Position numbers and translations under genes: made by a program. A stretch of 64,000 nt of DNA from Methanococcoides sp. (GTDB lineage Archaea; Halobacteriota; Methanosarcinia; Methanosarcinales; Methanosarcinaceae). Location: contig JAIORD010000005.1 in assembly GCA_021108275.1 (NCBI GenBank), positions 1-64,000 of the forward strand. Reading direction: 5' to 3'. Below are positions 50,946-64,000 of this stretch, in pieces. Under the pieces are notes generated by a model, which ran no database searches, was not told the origin of the DNA, and worked only from the letters and a program-made list of their open reading frames with translations. How positions within the stretch are numbered: position 1 is the first letter of the stretch; each line of letters opens with the position of its first letter.

Positions 50946-52883
50946 ATGGTCGAAGACGATTTGAATCGGTTGGTAAAACAAGAGACAAAAATACCTACAC
51001 TTGAAAAAACAGGTATTTTAAGCGACGAATACTATCATGTGCTGTTCGACTCATCTTCAGACGTCCTTATGTTGATGGACGAAAGGGGATTCATTGATTG
51101 TAATAAAGCGGCTCTGAAGATGTTTGGTTTCTCAAGAAAAGAAGAAATTATTGGATTTCATTTATCCGAAATATCACCTCCAAAGCAGCCAAACGGGGAA
51201 GATTCACGGAGTGCTGCACAGGATAGAATCGCAGAAGCCTTCAAGAATGAGTCTACCAAGTTTGAATGGGTTCACTGCAGAAAAAATGGAGAGGAATTCC
51301 CTGCTGAAGTGTGGTTAACACGCTTTTTGTTAAAAGATAAACAGATTCTGCAGGTTACTGTACGGGACATCACCGAGCGCAAGCAAATGGAAGAAACTCT
51401 ACGAAAGAGTGAAGCTAGTTTGTCCAATGCACAGCGTATTTCCCATCTTGGCAATTGGGATTGGGACCTCGTCAAAAATAAGTTAAAATTGTCAGACGAG
51501 ATCTATAATATCCTTGGGCTGGCACCTCTGGGATTTAAGACTACTTATGAGGCGTTTCTAAATTCCGTCCACCCTGATGATAGAATGTTTGTTCAGGACG
51601 CTATAAATAAGGCAGTGTATGAAAATAAACTGTATAGTATTGACTACCGCATTCTTTTGCCAGATGGCTCAGAACGTATTGTTCATGAGCAAGGCGAGGT
51701 TACTTTTAACAAAGCTGGTCAGGCGATTTGGATGTGTGGGACAATACAGGATATCACCGAGCGGAAACTGATAGAAACTGCTTTACAAAAATCTGAACAG
51801 AAGTTCAGAACATTTTTTAATCATTCTAATGATCCAACTTTAATATACGATTTGGACGGTGCCATCTTGGAAGTGAACGACATTGTTTGCGAATTCACAG
51901 GATATAGCCGAGATGAACTGCTGACTATATCGATAATGGATTTGGATTCTTCAGAATATGCACCAAATGTAACTGATAATATTAAGCAATTACAAAAGGG
52001 AATACGTTCTATATTTGAAAGTGTAGCTATTTGTAAAGACGGCACTCCTATCCCTATAGAACTAAGCAATCGCATTATTGAGTATGATGGAAAACCAGCT
52101 GTCTTATCCACTTCTAGAGATCTCACAGAGCGGAAGCAAGCAGAGGATGCAATGTTCCATGCAAAGCTTGTGGCGGAAACTGCTAATCGTACTAAGACCG
52201 AATTCCTCGCAAACATGAGTCATGAACTACGCACGCCTCTTAATTCCATCATCGGCTTCTCACAGTTGCTAAATAGCAATCCTTTCGGTAACCTGAATGA
52301 AAAAGAGATCAAGTATTCTGGAAATATTGCGGATAGTGGGAAACACTTACTGGACCTAATCAATGATATTCTTGATATCTCGAAAATCGAAAGTGGGGAG
52401 GTAGAACTTGAATGTGAAAAGTTTAGTTTACCTTCATTCATTCGTGATGTGGAAAATACAATTAAACATATGGCATATAAAAAGAACATTGAAATTTGTA
52501 ATCAGTTTCGTTCTGAAAATATCGAAATTTATGCCGACAGATTAAGGATGAAACAAATCTTGTATAATCTATTAAGTAATTCCTTGAAGTTTACACCTGA
52601 GCATGGGCTTATATAGATCAGTGCTGCAAATTATGATAATTTGCTGGAGATCTCTGTATCGGATAACGGTATTGGTATTCCCAAAAATAAGCATGAGGAA
52701 ATATTTGAGACCTTCAAACAGGTGGATTCATCAACTGCCAGAAAGTATGAGGGTACCGGTCTTGGTCTTGCACTTGTCAAGAAGTTTGTTGAAATGCATG
52801 GCGGGGAAATCTGGGTTGAAAGTGAAGTTGGAAAAGGAAGTACGTTCTCATTTACAATTCCTATAGAATGCAAAGTACAATAA
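50946..52883 (+). CDS. Cytoplasmic PAS histidine kinase interrupted by an in-frame UAG
   Basis: The ATG has GGGGGT 7 nt upstream. There are three PAS domains (about 25-150, 160-280, 285-400), then HisKA with [12 protein letters not shown] (His426), then a HATPase domain. TAG at 52614-52616 (codon 557) falls between the N-box region ([20 protein letters not shown]) and the G1 box. The same frame continues for 88 residues with [20 protein letters not shown], the F-box ETFKQVDSS and the G2 box [12 protein letters not shown], ending in TAA at 52883. Full length is 645 residues. Termination at the UAG would leave the ATP-binding domain without its G boxes, hence inactive. Readthrough, perhaps as pyrrolysine, or a nonsense mutation are the options. 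Confidence 0.85.
52614..52616 (+). other. In-frame UAG inside the kinase ATPase domain
   Basis: The context is [22 protein letters not shown]. The codon stands in a strand where variable residues are usual, so insertion of pyrrolysine or another residue could be tolerated. Confidence 0.75.
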
Positions 52884-56858: not shown

Positions 56859-58028
56859 TCAGCTCTTTTGTCTGCGGTTCAACGTGTACATCTGTACCTT
56901 TTTCATCTTTGCAAGGTTGACCATTCGATCCATTTCAGCTTTTTCCAGAGGACGGGCTTCCAGATATCCACTATCGACCGCCTCATTAAATATCTCATAC
57001 CCGATCGACGTCCTTGCGAGCACTGTGGTCCAGCCGACCGGAGTTCCCACGCCACCAAATGAAATGTCAGTGTTCTCAGCAGCCATATCGGTACAGAACT
57101 TACACGAACTACAACGGTATTGGTCCAATTCTGAAAGATCGTAGCTTTTCATACCTTCAGAAGTACCAAACTCAAAGAGCCCTTTTCGGATCTTCATTGA
57201 ATGGATATCAGTAAGTTCCAGCCCTTTTGACTCAACGAATTCTTTAATTCCATCGTGCTCAAAACTGTCCATACAGAACAGACCGAACTTAAGCACCCTT
57301 GCCCTTAAGAAAAGATGAAGAAAACCATACGAACTTGTCTGCATCTTGTGTACCGCGTCTATATTACAACTTGGACCAACAAATCCAATGCTACCCATCT
57401 CCTGCTTTATGGCGCTCATCAAAGGCTCCAATGTCATGCTATGAGTATAGATGCTCCCCGCAGACTCAAGCACTTCAGCAGAGGTCCTGACTATCACAGG
57501 CTCAGCCTTCCAGGGCTCATCCTCGGACCTTTTCGTAACAATGGCACAATCAAGCAATCCTTCATCAAGTGCGTATGCGAGCATTGAGGTTACAACGCCG
57601 CCGTCCTGCCCCTTCACTCCGGGAATCGCGGACCTTGCAGCGTAGCCATACCTTATCTTTCCAATAAGGTCCTCTTCCTTGGTGATGGTCCGAGGACATT
57701 GATTATAGCAAACCCCGCAGGCAGTACATTTGCCCACCAGTTTTGGCTTGTTGTCCACAAAAGTAACATATTCACAGGAAGCAACGCATGCACCACATAA
57801 AGTGCAGATCCCAGTTTTGATTATCTCCTTGTTCAGCCTGCCAAAGGATATCTTCTCCTGGTCTCCGATAGTGCGCTTGAGGCGTATAACGCTTTTTTCA
57901 AGCCTGTCGAACTTACTCTTACATCGGTCAGAGCAAAAGCGATAGCTTTTTCCGCCATATTCAGTGACATAGTCACTATCTTTAGATACCTGAGCCTTAC
58001 AGATGGGATCTATGAGCATTGTTATCAT
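56859..58028 (-). CDS. FrhB-type F420/flavin oxidoreductase with N-terminal YHS/TRASH domain
   Basis: The 389-residue protein begins with a metal-binding YHS/TRASH domain (LIDPICKAQVSK ... YRFCSDRCKSKF, about 4-42). Two 4Fe-4S clusters follow (CTLCGACVASC and CTACGVCYNQCP), then the F420-hydrogenase beta-subunit N- and C-terminal domains (SIGFVGPSCNIDAVHKM, FCMDSFEH, CSSCKFCTDMAAENTDIS). FrhB-like proteins move electrons between F420 and FAD or ferredoxin. The fused metal-sensing domain is unusual. No partner subunit adjoins. Start could also be the Met at codon 4. Confidence 0.85.
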   Translation of the reverse strand: MITMLIDPICKAQVSKDSDYVTEYGGKSYRFCSDRCKSKFDRLEKSVIRLKRTIGDQEKISFGRLNKEIIKTGICTLCGACVASCEYVTFVDNKPKLVGKCTACGVCYNQCPRTITKEEDLIGKIRYGYAARSAIPGVKGQDGGVVTSMLAYALDEGLLDCAIVTKRSEDEPWKAEPVIVRTSAEVLESAGSIYTHSMTLEPLMSAIKQEMGSIGFVGPSCNIDAVHKMQTSSYGFLHLFLRARVLKFGLFCMDSFEHDGIKEFVESKGLELTDIHSMKIRKGLFEFGTSEGMKSYDLSELDQYRCSSCKFCTDMAAENTDISFGGVGTPVGWTTVLARTSIGYEIFNEAVDSGYLEARPLEKAEMDRMVNLAKMKKVQMYTLNRRQKS

Positions 58029-58204: not shown

Positions 58205-61200
58205 TTAAAATCCTCTTCTTCTGAATCCAATATATATTGTACCAACAACAGCAAGTACAAATACGATTCCGAATACGTCAGTTCCTGAAAAAGAAGAACT
58301 GGTAGATTCATCTTTCCTGACATTTTCCATGGTCATCTCATAACCTTCTACATAATCGGAGCTAGATTCTGCAGAATCGGCAATTGGATCATCCAATGAT
58401 TCACCATAACCACCATTGGAAGTAGTATCTGTCTGGTTTGATGCAGAACCTGTAGTTGAAGAATTTACAACCTGCACACTGCCAACACCGCCACTACTGG
58501 AAGAAGATTTAGAGGAAGACTTTGGAGAAGAAATTTCTAATTTCGCCTGATTTGCCTCTTCTATTTTTTTAATAAATTCAGACATTGTTTCTTCACTAAC
58601 GACTCCTGGCACAGACATTAGACCTTCAACGACATAGCTATTAAGCATTGGATTTCCACATGTATGATGGCAACAGGAAACACCATTCTCAACTACTGAT
58701 TCGACATACTCCTTCATCAGGTCCTGGAATATCTCATCTGAGGGATCCCAATAATCCTTGCGTGCGGTCTCGAGCATCCTTCCAGTCATTGACTGATAAG
58801 CATCAGGATTGTTTTCTTGGAACCACTCTTGCATTTCAGGATCATTTATGTACTTATCATAGACCATCTCCCAATCACTATCATCAACAAGTTCAGGATT
58901 TGTGACTTCCCATCCCCAGAGATTCTCCACGAACTCTGAGAACATCTTACCACCTGCATAGCCTGAAGCCTGCATTCCTTCGATCCATTCCTGATTGTAA
59001 TATCTTGAGCGGAGGTTCTTGTCAAGGTATTCCTTCATTGTGACCATTCCACTTTCATCTGAATTTCTTGTGTCCGAGACATACATCTCAGGAGTATCTC
59101 CAGAAATATGTCTTGTTGCAAGATTCAATCCTCCGAAATACTGGAAGAAATCGTCATTATCCAGTGTATCGTACAGATTAGATGAATCAGAATGGATAGA
59201 AGCATCCACGTTCCTCAGGTTCTCAGCCAAAATGTCTGAACCCTGGTAACCCCAGATGTCAGTACCATAGACGTAGCCCATTTTACTCAGGTAGAGTTCA
59301 GCTATTGCTGCCTCATCTTCCCAGGTTCCACTTGCACCTATGGCATTACCAACTCCAATCTCATAAGTCCCATCGCGAACAGCGAAGCAACGCATGGTAG
59401 AAAGTTCAGATGCGGTTTCTTCATCATAGCCAGCATCTAACAATGCCTGTTTTACAGCTTGAGTACTCTGGTTGACGTAATTTGTATAGTTACCTGCAGG
59501 TGCAGTATTTGCCATCCTTACCGCCTCATCGATCATCTTGATCTTGTCAGGGAAAGCATCACGCATACCTGCAGTAGTGTATACAATGTCGATACGTGGT
59601 CTGCCTGGCATTGATGGATCATAATTCGGCAACAATTCCGACTCGTTCATAAGTGTAAGGCCTGTTACCTGTTTGGAAGTTGGATCCCATATCGGTTTCA
59701 CTCCAAGCAGATAGAGAACTTCTGCCTCAAGTGTGCCATGATCTCTTATGAACTCAACACCAAATCTTGAGAAAGAAACCTTTTCAGGATATTCACTGTG
59801 TTTTTCATAGTAATCCACAAGCATGTCCTGAGCAAGTCTTGAACCTAGGTCCCACGTTACTTCTGAAGGGTACAATCGGGAATCCACACCATAGAAGTTA
59901 CGTCCTGTCGGAATTGAATCAGGATTTTGGATAGGATCCCTGCCAGGCCCAGCTGTAATAAAACCAGCTTCAAGTGCAGACATTACCCGACCCAGTTCAT
60001 CAGCGGAAGCGATCAAGTTATCCCTATAAACAAGTCCCCTTTCAAGATCAGAGGTTATCGAAGAATCGTTAGAACCGTAAATAAAGTCCTGAGCTGTAAC
60101 TGAGTCAGTACCATTGGTTACAACATCCCATACCATCTGATCAATATTAGTGTCATTCAGAGGAATACCCATCGGATATTCAGTTTCATTGTAATAGAAT
60201 GCACTTGAGACATTATTCTGGAAAGAACTTCCCAGCATAGCCCTGACCATTGCTGATAATTGGTCACCATCTGGACCTGATTCGTTTGCAGGAGGCACTT
60301 CCCCAAGTACATGGAATCCATAAGGTATGTTCTCTTCCGATATCTCTTCCAGATACTCATGGAGTACATTCTTTACAAATGTCTGGAACTGAGTATCGTT
60401 GTTGCGGTACAGTTCCAATGTGTTCTCATCCACATTCAGATCTTCGTGTAAGTTGAGTTCTACCATTTGATCAATAATGGTCATCCTGTAACCATCCCTT
60501 ACTTCGTCAGACATCCCTGGATCGTAATAGGTCTGGATATCACTCGAAATATCTGCCATCTCAGCGTGGAGACCACCGCGCTCAAGGGTCGGTGTAAGAT
60601 GGTCGATGATCAGTGCATTTCCCCTGTATTCTGCAGTTAATCCTTCACCCACATTGGCTACAATGTATGGGTAAATATTAGGTATGTCCTGTAGTAGCAA
60701 AGGTGCCCAATCGGATGTTCTGTTCATACCATAGGCAAGTCCGGGAAGCCACTCATGAGTTCCATGGGTACCCAGATGAATCACTGCATCGGCATCCCAG
60801 TCATCGTTTAGCCAAAGGTAGAAAGCTATGTACTGATGTGGTGGAGGTACCAATGTACTGTGATACAACACGTTGTCGTTTTGTGTCATTCCACGTGCAG
60901 GTTGAGGCATCAACCAAACATTTCCACACTGTACAGTAGGAATCACGATGTATCTGCCGGATTCATTTTCCCATATCATGAACATCTCATCTTCAGTGAA
61001 ATCTTCAGACCAGGGTTCCCCCCACTCATTAATTACCTGAGTACGTAGATTTTCAGGAAGTTCCTCATTGAACCACTCGTGATAGGTTTCAATAGGTATA
61101 AGTTGAGCACCCCATTCAGTTCGATTCTCAACCATCTCATCGAGAACACCCGGTGCCCAGGAACCAACATTTATGCCTTGTGATTTTACCCTATCGAGCA

Positions 61201-62527
61201 GCTCAGTAGTGTTTTCTGGAATATATGTAAGATTGTACTGACTTCCATTCATTTCATCGAGTAAATTCACAATACTTGCCATACTGTCCAGGTAGCTGGC
61301 TCCAATACTATCCTTACCAGGAGGATAGTTATAGTAGATCACAGCAACTTTTTTGTCCTCATTGGATTTTCTTTTGAGCTCGGCCCACTCGATAGAACGG
61401 TTCGCCATCCAGTCGATCTGAGCATCATTTGGTACGTATTCATAGACATAATACCCGACCTCTTTCTTATCACCAAGCACTATATATTCGAATATGCCGT
61501 CGATGTTTGGAAGAACGGTCTTACGTGTTGCTTCCTGATTGGAGATTCCCCTGTTTGCATCAGCAGGATCACCATAAGAAGGATCAGCAACCATTCCTTT
61601 TAATACAGGAACATCGAGATTTCTCAATGCTGCATCTCCATATCCCTTATACATATTGACATCGAGTCCGAAGCTCTTAAGAGAGATCATACATTGGACC
61701 AAAGGAGTACCAGTTTCATTACAATAAAAACCGGAAATATTATAGAAAGTATCAAATCCAGCAATGACATTGCAATCCTTGCTTTCCAAATCACGAATCA
61801 GAGCATCTACGATCTCCGTATTTCCATCCTTATAGTCGGACTTATGGAACCATATCCCTATAGTTGGCTTTGCAGGATCATATGTGAAATGCTCACCATT
61901 GGAATCGTTTTGATACCATTCAAAATATTCTGCAGGAGTATCGAACCAATATGCATCTGAATCCGGATGGTAGATGCCCTGAGGAAGCATTATCGGTTCA
62001 GTATAATCCCAACTGCTTGTCAGAGTTGTTTTGCCACCATAGTTCTTAGCCAGATACACAAGGAAATTTTCAGCATTCTCTTTCAGGAAATCTTCCTGCA
62101 GACCCATGTTGAAGAAATATTGTTCATCAAAACTTCCATAGGGTTCACCACCAGAGAAATCGTAGTCATATGTAGAGTTCAATATTGAAGGATCGATATA
62201 ACTTGCAATGTTAATAAGCACAGTTCCATTTGATTTTGCATATTCCATTTCATCAGAGAACTGATCGTACTTAGATTGCCACAGCATATAGGTAAAGATG
62301 ACATCCTGGTTACTGAGATCTATTTCAGAAAGATTCTGCATTGTTGAATGATATGTAACATTTATGCTTGCATTGTAAGGATTTGCTCCCTTCGCATAAT
62401 CTATTACTGCTCCATCGCTATAAGTGATCAAAGTAATGTTGACCTGTTCATCTGCCGATACCACTGGCGAAAGAGCCAGTAAAATCAAAACACTTAAAAG
62501 TAATAACTGATGTTTTATGTTTTGCAT
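58205..62527 (-). CDS. CobN-like chelatase subunit, exported and membrane-anchored
   Basis: The 1440-residue protein has a signal peptide (KHQLLLLSVLILLALSPVVSA). A full CobN/magnesium chelatase H fold follows, with HLGTHGTHEWLPG and AVIHLG, FDVFVGT-type regions and a late CCHHTCGNP motif. A Ser-rich linker and a C-terminal helix with RRRGF complete it. CobN normally works in the cytoplasm with CobS/CobT or ChlI/ChlD to put cobalt or magnesium into a tetrapyrrole; here the body would be outside the membrane. Binding of corrinoids or cobalt at the surface is plausible. The ATG at 62525-62527 has GGTGG upstream; the frame's GTG at 62563 is discarded. A paralogue follows upstream at 63132. Confidence 0.88.
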   Translation of the reverse strand: MQNIKHQLLLLSVLILLALSPVVSADEQVNITLITYSDGAVIDYAKGANPYNASINVTYHSTMQNLSEIDLSNQDVIFTYMLWQSKYDQFSDEMEYAKSNGTVLINIASYIDPSILNSTYDYDFSGGEPYGSFDEQYFFNMGLQEDFLKENAENFLVYLAKNYGGKTTLTSSWDYTEPIMLPQGIYHPDSDAYWFDTPAEYFEWYQNDSNGEHFTYDPAKPTIGIWFHKSDYKDGNTEIVDALIRDLESKDCNVIAGFDTFYNISGFYCNETGTPLVQCMISLKSFGLDVNMYKGYGDAALRNLDVPVLKGMVADPSYGDPADANRGISNQEATRKTVLPNIDGIFEYIVLGDKKEVGYYVYEYVPNDAQIDWMANRSIEWAELKRKSNEDKKVAVIYYNYPPGKDSIGASYLDSMASIVNLLDEMNGSQYNLTYIPENTTELLDRVKSQGINVGSWAPGVLDEMVENRTEWGAQLIPIETYHEWFNEELPENLRTQVINEWGEPWSEDFTEDEMFMIWENESGRYIVIPTVQCGNVWLMPQPARGMTQNDNVLYHSTLVPPPHQYIAFYLWLNDDWDADAVIHLGTHGTHEWLPGLAYGMNRTSDWAPLLLQDIPNIYPYIVANVGEGLTAEYRGNALIIDHLTPTLERGGLHAEMADISSDIQTYYDPGMSDEVRDGYRMTIIDQMVELNLHEDLNVDENTLELYRNNDTQFQTFVKNVLHEYLEEISEENIPYGFHVLGEVPPANESGPDGDQLSAMVRAMLGSSFQNNVSSAFYYNETEYPMGIPLNDTNIDQMVWDVVTNGTDSVTAQDFIYGSNDSSITSDLERGLVYRDNLIASADELGRVMSALEAGFITAGPGRDPIQNPDSIPTGRNFYGVDSRLYPSEVTWDLGSRLAQDMLVDYYEKHSEYPEKVSFSRFGVEFIRDHGTLEAEVLYLLGVKPIWDPTSKQVTGLTLMNESELLPNYDPSMPGRPRIDIVYTTAGMRDAFPDKIKMIDEAVRMANTAPAGNYTNYVNQSTQAVKQALLDAGYDEETASELSTMRCFAVRDGTYEIGVGNAIGASGTWEDEAAIAELYLSKMGYVYGTDIWGYQGSDILAENLRNVDASIHSDSSNLYDTLDNDDFFQYFGGLNLATRHISGDTPEMYVSDTRNSDESGMVTMKEYLDKNLRSRYYNQEWIEGMQASGYAGGKMFSEFVENLWGWEVTNPELVDDSDWEMVYDKYINDPEMQEWFQENNPDAYQSMTGRMLETARKDYWDPSDEIFQDLMKEYVESVVENGVSCCHHTCGNPMLNSYVVEGLMSVPGVVSEETMSEFIKKIEEANQAKLEISSPKSSSKSSSSSGGVGSVQVVNSSTTGSASNQTDTTSNGGYGESLDDPIADSAESSSDYVEGYEMTMENVRKDESTSSSFSGTDVFGIVFVLAVVGTIYIGFRRRGF

Positions 62528-63093
62528 ATTATCCACCCGATAATGTGTAAGACGTCCCGGCACTTTGCTTGGCGGCTGTTCCGGGATGACTCAAACTTTC
62601 ATGATCCACTCATTTTCATTCAATTTTCTAATTTGTCATTTCCATAAACTCTTGAAAGAATAAAATGAGCGTCCTAATTGTATTTATTTACTGCCACATT
62701 TCTTGATCCTTGTAGTAGTTACGTAATATATTGTATTACAAATAGAACAATTCGTAACATGAAACTTTAGTGTCTAGGATAATATTGCATAAATACATTT
62801 GTAATTAGATAATATATGTAATCTAAAGTACTAACTGTGTGCATAGTGGAAAAGGAGGCAGCGACAGAAGCATAACTAGGAGCTAAATTTGTTTTTGCTT
62901 TAAAAGCATAACTCTTTTTTCAGGAACAATGGCACTACTCTGAGCATAGCTTATACACATTAAAAATTGTTAATCTAACCATCGGCTATAAGCAAGAACG
63001 TCAAAAGCCCAAGATTCCCTTTATACTGTTTATGGTATGCATATAACACCAAGTATTGAGAATCGATAACCAAAAAACAAAAAAAGAAAAGGA
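62528..63093. other. Promoter/leader region of the first CobN-like gene
   Basis: About 570 bp with no gene. It holds AT-rich promoter-like stretches, and a plus-strand purine-rich motif (AAAGGAGGCAGCGACAGAAG, about 62848). I see no cobalamin riboswitch. Confidence 0.4.
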
Positions 63094-63117
63094 CACTTCG
63101 ACAACATTATCGAAGTG
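63094..63117 (-). terminator. Terminator after the second CobN-like gene
   Basis: CACTTCG and CGAAGTG form a 7-bp stem around 10 nt. The minus strand continues TCCTTTTCTTTTTTTG. Confidence 0.75.
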
Positions 63118-63131
63118 CTACTAAATTGATT

Positions 63132-64000
63132 TTAGATCCCTCGTCTCCTGAAACCGACAAATATGACAGAAACGGCCAGTATGACCAACACACTGCCTAA
63201 AATATCAGCACCGGAGAAGGATGTAGACGACGAGGCTGAATCGCTTGTTGTGGATTCTTTTGTCATTTCATACCCTTCAACGTAGTTGTCTGGTGTGTTT
63301 TGCTGAGAAGACTCTGTTGCCTGCTCGGTGGTAGTTCCATACCCCCCACTAGCACTGCTTGTGCTAGTGGTATTGACGATCGAAGCAGATCCAGTTGATC
63401 CACTACTGCTGCTGCGGGTACTGGAAGCTGATGATGAAGTTTCCCTTTGTGTGGCTTCCTGCATCAGTTTGTTGTACTCGTCTATGGTCTCCTGTGAAAC
63501 AACACCTGGTATGGACATCACGCCCTGTATATAACTATCGAGCAACGGATTACCACAGGTATGATGACAGCATGTTACACCGTTCTCGACCACGGATTCT
63601 GCGTACTCCTTTACTAGGTTCTGGAGGACCTCATCCGATGCATCCCAGTAGTCTTTCCTTGCGGTTTCAAGCATGCGAGCAGTCATGGATTGATATTGAT
63701 ATGGGTTATCATTGAAGAATTCATCCATGCCAAGATCGTACTTGTCGTTGACGTAGATATCATAGATATCATTCCAGTCAGAATCCTTTACCAATCCAGG
63801 GGTCGTCGCATCCCAGCCCCACATATGCTCGGTGAACTTCATGAACTCCCTAGCGCCAGCGTAATCGTATTCCATCATACCCTCTATCCATTTAGGATTG
63901 AAATATCTTGCACGCAATTCCGTCCTGAATGCCTCGTTCAGGGTAATGATCTGGGGATTGTCCACACTTTTCAGATCTGCAATATACATCTCCGGATTAT
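63132..64000 (-). CDS. Second CobN-like membrane-anchored chelatase (partial)
   Basis: Only the C-terminal 289 or so residues lie in the window. They align with the first CobN-like protein (PEMYIADLKS/PEMYVSDTRN, CCHHTCGNPLLDSY, MTARMLETARKDYWD). They then pass through a Ser/Thr-rich linker to YVEGYEMTKES and a final helix with GFRRRGI. The shared C-terminal pattern shows tandem duplication. The start lies beyond the right edge. Confidence 0.85.
   Translation of the reverse strand, partial: NPEMYIADLKSVDNPQIITLNEAFRTELRARYFNPKWIEGMMEYDYAGAREFMKFTEHMWGWDATTPGLVKDSDWNDIYDIYVNDKYDLGMDEFFNDNPYQYQSMTARMLETARKDYWDASDEVLQNLVKEYAESVVENGVTCCHHTCGNPLLDSYIQGVMSIPGVVSQETIDEYNKLMQEATQRETSSSASSTRSSSSGSTGSASIVNTTSTSSASGGYGTTTEQATESSQQNTPDNYVEGYEMTKESTTSDSASSSTSFSGADILGSVLVILAVSVIFVGFRRRGI

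Follow-up and report, generated by a model that had tools for sequence, protein, structure and literature searches.

HmuS of Bacteroidota is established as an anaerobic de-chelatase of heme (PMC12583661) and is a Gram-negative protein with a periplasmic body (PMC13227078, PMC6460266). The recombinant protein, lacking its helices and partners, completes just 1 to 2 turnovers (PMC12583661). Archaea also encode HmuS/CobN homologues, whose role was considered unclear in the 2025 HmuS paper since complete hmu operons are lacking there (PMC12583661). BtuS proteins of Methanosarcina barkeri are known only through proteomics, and their authors, too, describe the operon as missing, with T-U-V unmentioned in the passages considered here (PMC10846266). 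Here we describe two CobN-like proteins, together with adjoining T, U and V genes, from a Methanococcoides genome. The window is the whole stretch of DNA analyzed, the first 64,000 nucleotides of contig C1, and all coordinates on this contig share its numbering.

Export and membrane anchoring of the CobN-like pair

The first protein is encoded at 58205..62563 on the minus strand, with 1452 aa counted from a GTG codon, and matches PF02514 with an E value of 1.4e-298; the match spans profile positions 9 to 1088 of 1090, a full-length domain. An ATG at 62527 (MQNIKHQLLLL...) is the likelier start. The window holds the C-terminal end of the second protein (63132..64000, minus strand; PF02514, E value of 1.1e-41), whose gene reaches beyond the window as far as contig position 67763 and whose whole product has 1543 aa, 42% identical to the first. 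The two CobN paralogues with shared tails described in the initial annotation are thus both present. Each consists of a signal peptide, a CobN/Mg-chelatase domain, a Ser-rich linker, a YVEGYEM segment, one transmembrane helix and a basic end.

The predicted Sec-type signal peptide of the first protein, MQNIKHQLLLLSVLILLALSPVVSA, lies at 62453..62527 (minus strand), and its 12-residue h-region has a hydropathy of 3.34, compared to at most 2.1 in cytoplasmic CobN/BchH. The signal peptide of the second protein, beyond the window edge, is nearly identical. Nearly all archaeal members have a strong N-terminal h-region, and cytoplasmic CobN/BchH have no comparable one. N-glycosylation sequons are about 2-fold more frequent in the pair than in shuffled sequences (28 versus 12.7 and 39 versus 18.4), and five cytoplasmic CobN proteins contain 0 to 5. 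The h-regions and the sequon excess both bear out the export that had been proposed, and it is well supported that the pair is exported and held outside the cell by a single C-terminal helix.

The pair scores below every cut-off of the NCBIfam CobN equivalog models, and the closest solved structure to the first protein is the HmuS heme de-chelatase (9d26, E value of 9.5e-128). In a quick, midpoint-rooted tree with long branches, of which only the split between anchored and cytoplasmic proteins is used, the anchored proteins (archaeal, Trichlorobacter, Runella, Cupriavidus and HmuS) separate from cytoplasmic CobN and BchH with an SH-aLRT of 98. Judged by sequence, the pair belongs to the CobN/Mg-chelatase superfamily as an exported, anchored third kind, the BtuS/HmuS kind, and should not be filed as HmuS, as a cytoplasmic cobaltochelatase or as a sortase target.

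The last of these labels concerns the tail. YVEGYEM is found at 58334..58354 in the first protein and 63264..63284 in the second, and in the first the C-terminal helix followed by GFRRRGF, identified by hydropathy, occupies 58229..58276 (all minus strand). Among 37 archaeal CobN-like proteins with the tail, every one has G-x-x-M ahead of the helix, against 6.2 expected from shuffled linkers; within YVEGYEM, G and M are conserved at 100%, V at 97%, E at 94% and Y at about 90%. Conservation is also good in the helix and at S and D within FSG-D, but both FSG as a whole (also FSS, FST, ISG and VSS) and the very end (GFMRKK, GYKRRS and GFWRRR besides GFRRRG) are less constant than GYEM. Bacteroidota HmuS proteins carry an equivalent segment, KGMVMKKEE, about 21 residues ahead of a helix ending in RKRR; of 76 such proteins, 55 contain G-x-x-M, where shuffled linkers would give 6.8, and the archaeal profile of the tail can be aligned in register with the Bacteroidota one (hhalign, 84.7%, 6.7e-6). 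Matching segments are QVEGFEMKE in Trichlorobacter and VKGYKMQEE in Runella.

The tail had been interpreted as a surface-sorting or anchoring signal. A new archaeosortase signal made of YVEGYEM, FSG-D--G, the helix and GFRRRG would agree with the three-part design of motif, helix and Arg cluster, with its strong conservation in archaea, and with the two exosortase-family genes of the genome. However, a search of the genome itself and its relatives (about 40 genomes) placed confident tail matches on CobN-like proteins alone, and the tail is absent from their other surface proteins, an outcome that the initial annotation had named as speaking against its reading; the short tail-bearing open frames examined are CobN fragments, and one further match (G045:C40) has no convincing open reading frame. 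The PGF-CTERM model does not match the pair at E values up to 1, although archaeosortase genes are present and the model does match another protein of the same genome. No exosortase family is among the first 25 neighbor families listed, FSG and the Arg cluster vary, and the core motif recurs in Gram-negative relatives. Since HmuS relatives carrying the motif are periplasmic, the segment is better read as a family-wide juxtamembrane motif than as an archaeal sorting tag. The tail thus retains its anchoring role, as a plain single-helix anchor, and we discard the sorting role; processing by a sortase appears extremely unlikely.

The T-U-V genes and their conservation

Upstream of the CobN pair, outside the window and on the same strand (minus), lie V, a DUF2149 protein (C1 67906-68265), U, a MotA/ExbB protein (PF01618; C1 68262-68891), and T, a DUF2162 protein (C1 68888-69562). 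U overlaps both V and T, and T-U-V-CobN-CobN form a tandem array on one strand. Of 25 Methanosarcinaceae loci with V, 23 have CobN directly beside T-U-V, commonly as 2 or 3 tandem copies, and two loci of another family of the order (L077 and L220) show the order CobN-T-U-V, which is the order of hmuS-T-U-V. DUF2149 occurs in 111 of 160 genomes of the class, and Methanosarcina acetivorans has matches to the T family as well as to the V family. The arrangement of U, V and CobN as an operon is well supported. The inner-membrane part of the hmu operon (CobN, U, V and a different T) is present and conserved across Methanosarcinaceae.

U matches ExbB/TolQ structures (ExbB 5sv0, E value of 2e-14). 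V consists of one helix with a near-invariant Asp (NLFDxAMVF) and a small outer domain with strands; it has no match to ExbD by sequence, and its predicted model is of low confidence (pLDDT 60). For comparison with hmu, 80 HmuS loci of Bacteroidota were fetched. Archaeal U finds its Bacteroidota counterpart at about 1e-35. For V the value is about 1e-30, with DUF2149 as the family on both sides, and distinct V proteins were recovered at 66 of the 80 loci. The T proteins of the two groups are unrelated by profile comparison (hhalign probability of 4%), which gives no support to archaeal T as an HmuT homologue. In Runella, the T position is filled by a protein with weak DsbD/NicO similarity. Across the loci compared, S (the CobN/HmuS protein), U and V appear from their sequences to be constant and T varies. 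On a Trichlorobacter plasmid, a TonB receptor is followed by DUF2162, U, V and CobN and then by a separate set of ExbB, ExbD and TonB; the whole lies amid cobalamin genes, with an ECF metal permease nearby.

PCPxC is invariant in 15 DUF2162 proteins, and T might pass electrons through these conserved Cys residues to the C-terminal Cys pair of CobN. This is only a lead, and Bacteroidota T proteins without these Cys residues and HmuS proteins without the C-terminal Cys pair speak against such a route.

Other neighbors were recorded as well. A tally of 89 neighbor proteins revealed no dominant metal or tetrapyrrole family among the first 25 families listed. Downstream of CobN, a gene for a protein with YHS, 4Fe-4S and FrhB/FdhB (F420-type flavoprotein) parts (56859..58028, minus strand) adjoins CobN in 8 of 9 loci of the same genus and not in other genera; its family includes the chlorophyll-ring reductase HCAR, the match being weak. 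A PAS histidine kinase at window positions 50946-52883 looks split: a 556-aa open reading frame stops inside the ATPase domain, and the remainder continues in another frame from 52641. Six loci from other lineages of the order (L069, L071, L072, L078, L079 and L080) encode a U that is longer (mostly about 400 aa) together with a divergent V, next to large open reading frames of unknown type and with no CobN directly alongside; the U/V pair there may serve another partner.

Active-site residues, paralogues and the choice of metal

The catalytic-His motif reads HLGTHG and HFGTHG in the pair, and in the alignment His600 of the first protein (60764..60766, minus strand) is equivalent to the catalytic His-538 of HmuS. 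His-538 and Glu-577 (HmuS numbering) are kept in every aligned protein. The motif LSLDHxxEFMGG, with His-1209 and Glu-1212 of HmuS, is replaced in the pair by DNDDFFQYFGG and DNDDFYQYLGG, giving an Asp/Gln signature (Asp1138 of the first protein, 59150..59152, minus strand, at the position of His-1209) that is shared with most cytoplasmic CobN proteins and with Trichlorobacter. The heme ligands Met-79 and His-254 (HGR, head/neck interface) are present in all eleven Bacteroidota HmuS proteins aligned and absent from every aligned archaeal protein, the distant alignment of the head region being uncertain. None of the archaeal proteins examined has Gln-299, Gln-1198 or Trp-1202. The C-terminal SCCHHTCGN of the first protein (58652..58678, minus strand, by alignment) represents an SC...C-x-N element common to membrane-anchored relatives and absent from cytoplasmic CobN and BchH. 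The pair is therefore not HmuS proper, because Met-79/His-254 and His-1209 are lacking, though His-538 is kept; it may yet function in an HmuS-like manner. With the heme ligands absent and a CobN-like Asp in place, cobalt or nickel is slightly favored over heme iron for the pair, though with low confidence.

Gene linkage bears on the same question. CbiMQO (CbiM-CbiQ-ABC) directly adjoins CobN-T-U-V in L077 and T-U-V in L076, the only two such cases among the archaeal loci examined apart from a CbiM gene near a decayed copy on contig C4. No CbiM linkage was found among the rows listed for Methanosarcinaceae, whose listed neighbors point to no metal. The cobalt or corrinoid role suggested by the initial annotation stays plausible because some relatives have CbiMQO or cobalamin genes next to the module.

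The genome contains five copies of the tail: the window pair and three others. The paralogue on C6 (C6:15823-22023; L017:5824-12024) is intact, with 2066 aa, and exported, and it carries PKD and SdrD/SpaA-like repeats, some of them placed between the two CobN halves. T-U-V do not lie beside it, meaning that S can exist without an adjacent motor. The C14 paralogue (C14:49583-56953; L016:5584-12954), with PKD and beta-sandwich repeats, is interrupted by an in-frame stop. Reading this stop as pyrrolysine TAG was rejected, as the codon is TGA at a Trp position, indicative of a decayed copy or a sequencing error. Directly upstream, T is joined to V and U is missing, and the C14 locus is a decayed third copy of the module. 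Both the C6 and C14 proteins retain His-1209/Glu-1212 (FDHxYEFFGG), the C6 protein having the HmuS-type DHxYEFxGG motif. On C4 (C4:141960-143307; L018:7961-9308), a 163-aa open reading frame is a bare remnant holding the CobN tail only. It faces copies of U and V head-to-head and belongs to a metal cluster that also includes ZnuA-like, MntR-like, FeoB, PGF-CTERM protein and CbiM genes.

Every CobN-like protein detected in the genome is exported, and no cytoplasmic CobN was found. A pair of ChlI-like AAA+ and VWA (ChlD-like) genes at C9:58282-61043 (L184:8283-11044) has no H subunit of its own. The window pair could be imagined as a cytoplasmic cobaltochelatase or other metal insertase that works with these proteins, the more so as it has the CobN-like Asp at the His-1209 position; yet signal peptides and C-terminal anchors occur across the family, the sequon excess points outward, the pair clusters with anchored relatives in the tree, and the CobN genes are not linked to ChlI/D. 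We consider this very unlikely.

Salvage of heme iron is a closer contender, in which archaeal HmuS/BtuS enzymes would take iron from heme and the iron would enter via FeoB. HmuS is the closest solved relative, U and V are common to hmu, His-538 is retained, and the decayed C4 copy adjoins FeoB, the MntR-like regulator and ZnuA. In M. barkeri, BtuS proteins increase with Fe(II)/Cys as well as with FeS2, the latter also raising FeoB, but the authors found no sign of iron limitation (PMC10846266). The pair also lacks Met-79, His-254, Gln-299, Gln-1198, Trp-1202 and His-1209, and on balance iron salvage seems unlikely for it. The exchange of His-1209 and Glu-1212 for Asp and Gln would also fit a receptor without enzymatic activity, whose CobN fold captures an intact corrinoid or tetrapyrrole on the surface and passes it to T, driven by U/V. 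However, the equivalents of His-538 and Glu-577 are invariant, as if the central site were used, and T is small and varies between lineages, making such a receptor improbable.

A proposed proton-driven motor and comparison with known systems

Our main reading, to which we assign a probability of about 0.45, is that the pair serves extracytoplasmic metallo-tetrapyrrole salvage within a T-U-V-S module, with U/V as a proton-driven motor on CobN and cobalt or nickel favored over heme iron. The motor role, de-chelation, the identity of the metal and the role of T are inferred. The signal peptide would export the large chelatase-fold body, and the C-terminal helix would tether it to the outer side of the membrane, with the G-x-x-M segment just above the membrane as the likely partner contact point. 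The ExbB/TolQ-like U and V would act on CobN itself, replacing the ATP-driven AAA+ proteins (ChlI/D, CobS/T) of cytoplasmic relatives, as ATP is not available outside the cell. The CobN body would bind a metallo-tetrapyrrole and remove its metal via the HxGTHG histidine, after which T or a separate carrier would bring the metal into the cell.

Two points chiefly underlie the proposal that U/V act on CobN. Such archaea lack an outer membrane and hence any outer-membrane receptor to energize, and the separate ExbB-ExbD-TonB set beside the Trichlorobacter module indicates that U/V need not serve a TonB receptor there either. The few turnovers of recombinant HmuS without its helices and partners also fit this reading (PMC12583661). 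Several observations weigh against salvage by such a motor: T is unrelated to its Bacteroidota counterpart, V is not recognizable as ExbD by sequence and has been modeled poorly, T-U-V are not adjacent to the intact C6 paralogue, CbiMQO linkage is confined to a few of the loci examined, and the genome encodes cytoplasmic ChlI/ChlD proteins that lack an H subunit of their own. A broader generalization, in which HmuU/HmuV-type proteins are the dedicated proton motor of an exported chelatase instead of a receptor energizer, and class I chelatases come in two motor forms (ATP/AAA+ in the cytoplasm, ExbB/ExbD-like outside), is possible, with the odds somewhat against it.

The absence of an outer membrane makes separable two roles that are confounded in Bacteroidota, energizing a TonB-type receptor and acting on the de-chelatase. 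If the broader generalization is true, archaea would show the proton-driven chelatase motor in its simplest form, with no outer membrane. Methylotrophic methanogens, with their high demand for Co and Ni, might also have in the module a route for drawing metals from environmental tetrapyrroles. Deletion tests are practical in M. acetivorans, which is genetically tractable and scores for T and V.

Among known systems, cytoplasmic CobN (PDB 7c6o) and ChlH/BchH share with the pair the chelatase fold, the HxGxHG motif and the CobN-like Asp/Gln signature; they differ in having no signal peptide, anchor or SC...C element and in their ATP-driven CobS/T or ChlI/D partners. The BtuS proteins of M. barkeri (MSBRM_0518 and MSBRM_1640), a related methanogen, are reported as CobN-like candidates for metalloporphyrin salvage (PMC10846266). 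The module on Trichlorobacter (Geobacter) lovleyi pSZ77/pGLOV01 has the same T(DUF2162)-U-V-CobN order, Asp at the His-1209 position, an SC...C-x-N-like element and a VEGFEMKE tail, but it lies between TonB receptors, with its own ExbB-ExbD-TonB, inside cobalamin genes and in a bacterium with an outer membrane. Compared to Bacteroidota HmuS-T-U-V (HmuS PDB 9d26; Bacteroides fragilis BtuS1/BtuS2), the archaeal locus has no HmuY/HmuR, its T is an unrelated DUF2162 protein, its order is mostly T-U-V-S with CobN duplicated in tandem, and the window pair departs from HmuS at the heme-ligand and other positions listed above. What the two have in common is an exported chelatase fold with a hydrophobic segment at the N terminus and a C-terminal helix, adjacent homologous U and V, the His-538 equivalent, the SC...C-x-N element and G-x-x-M.
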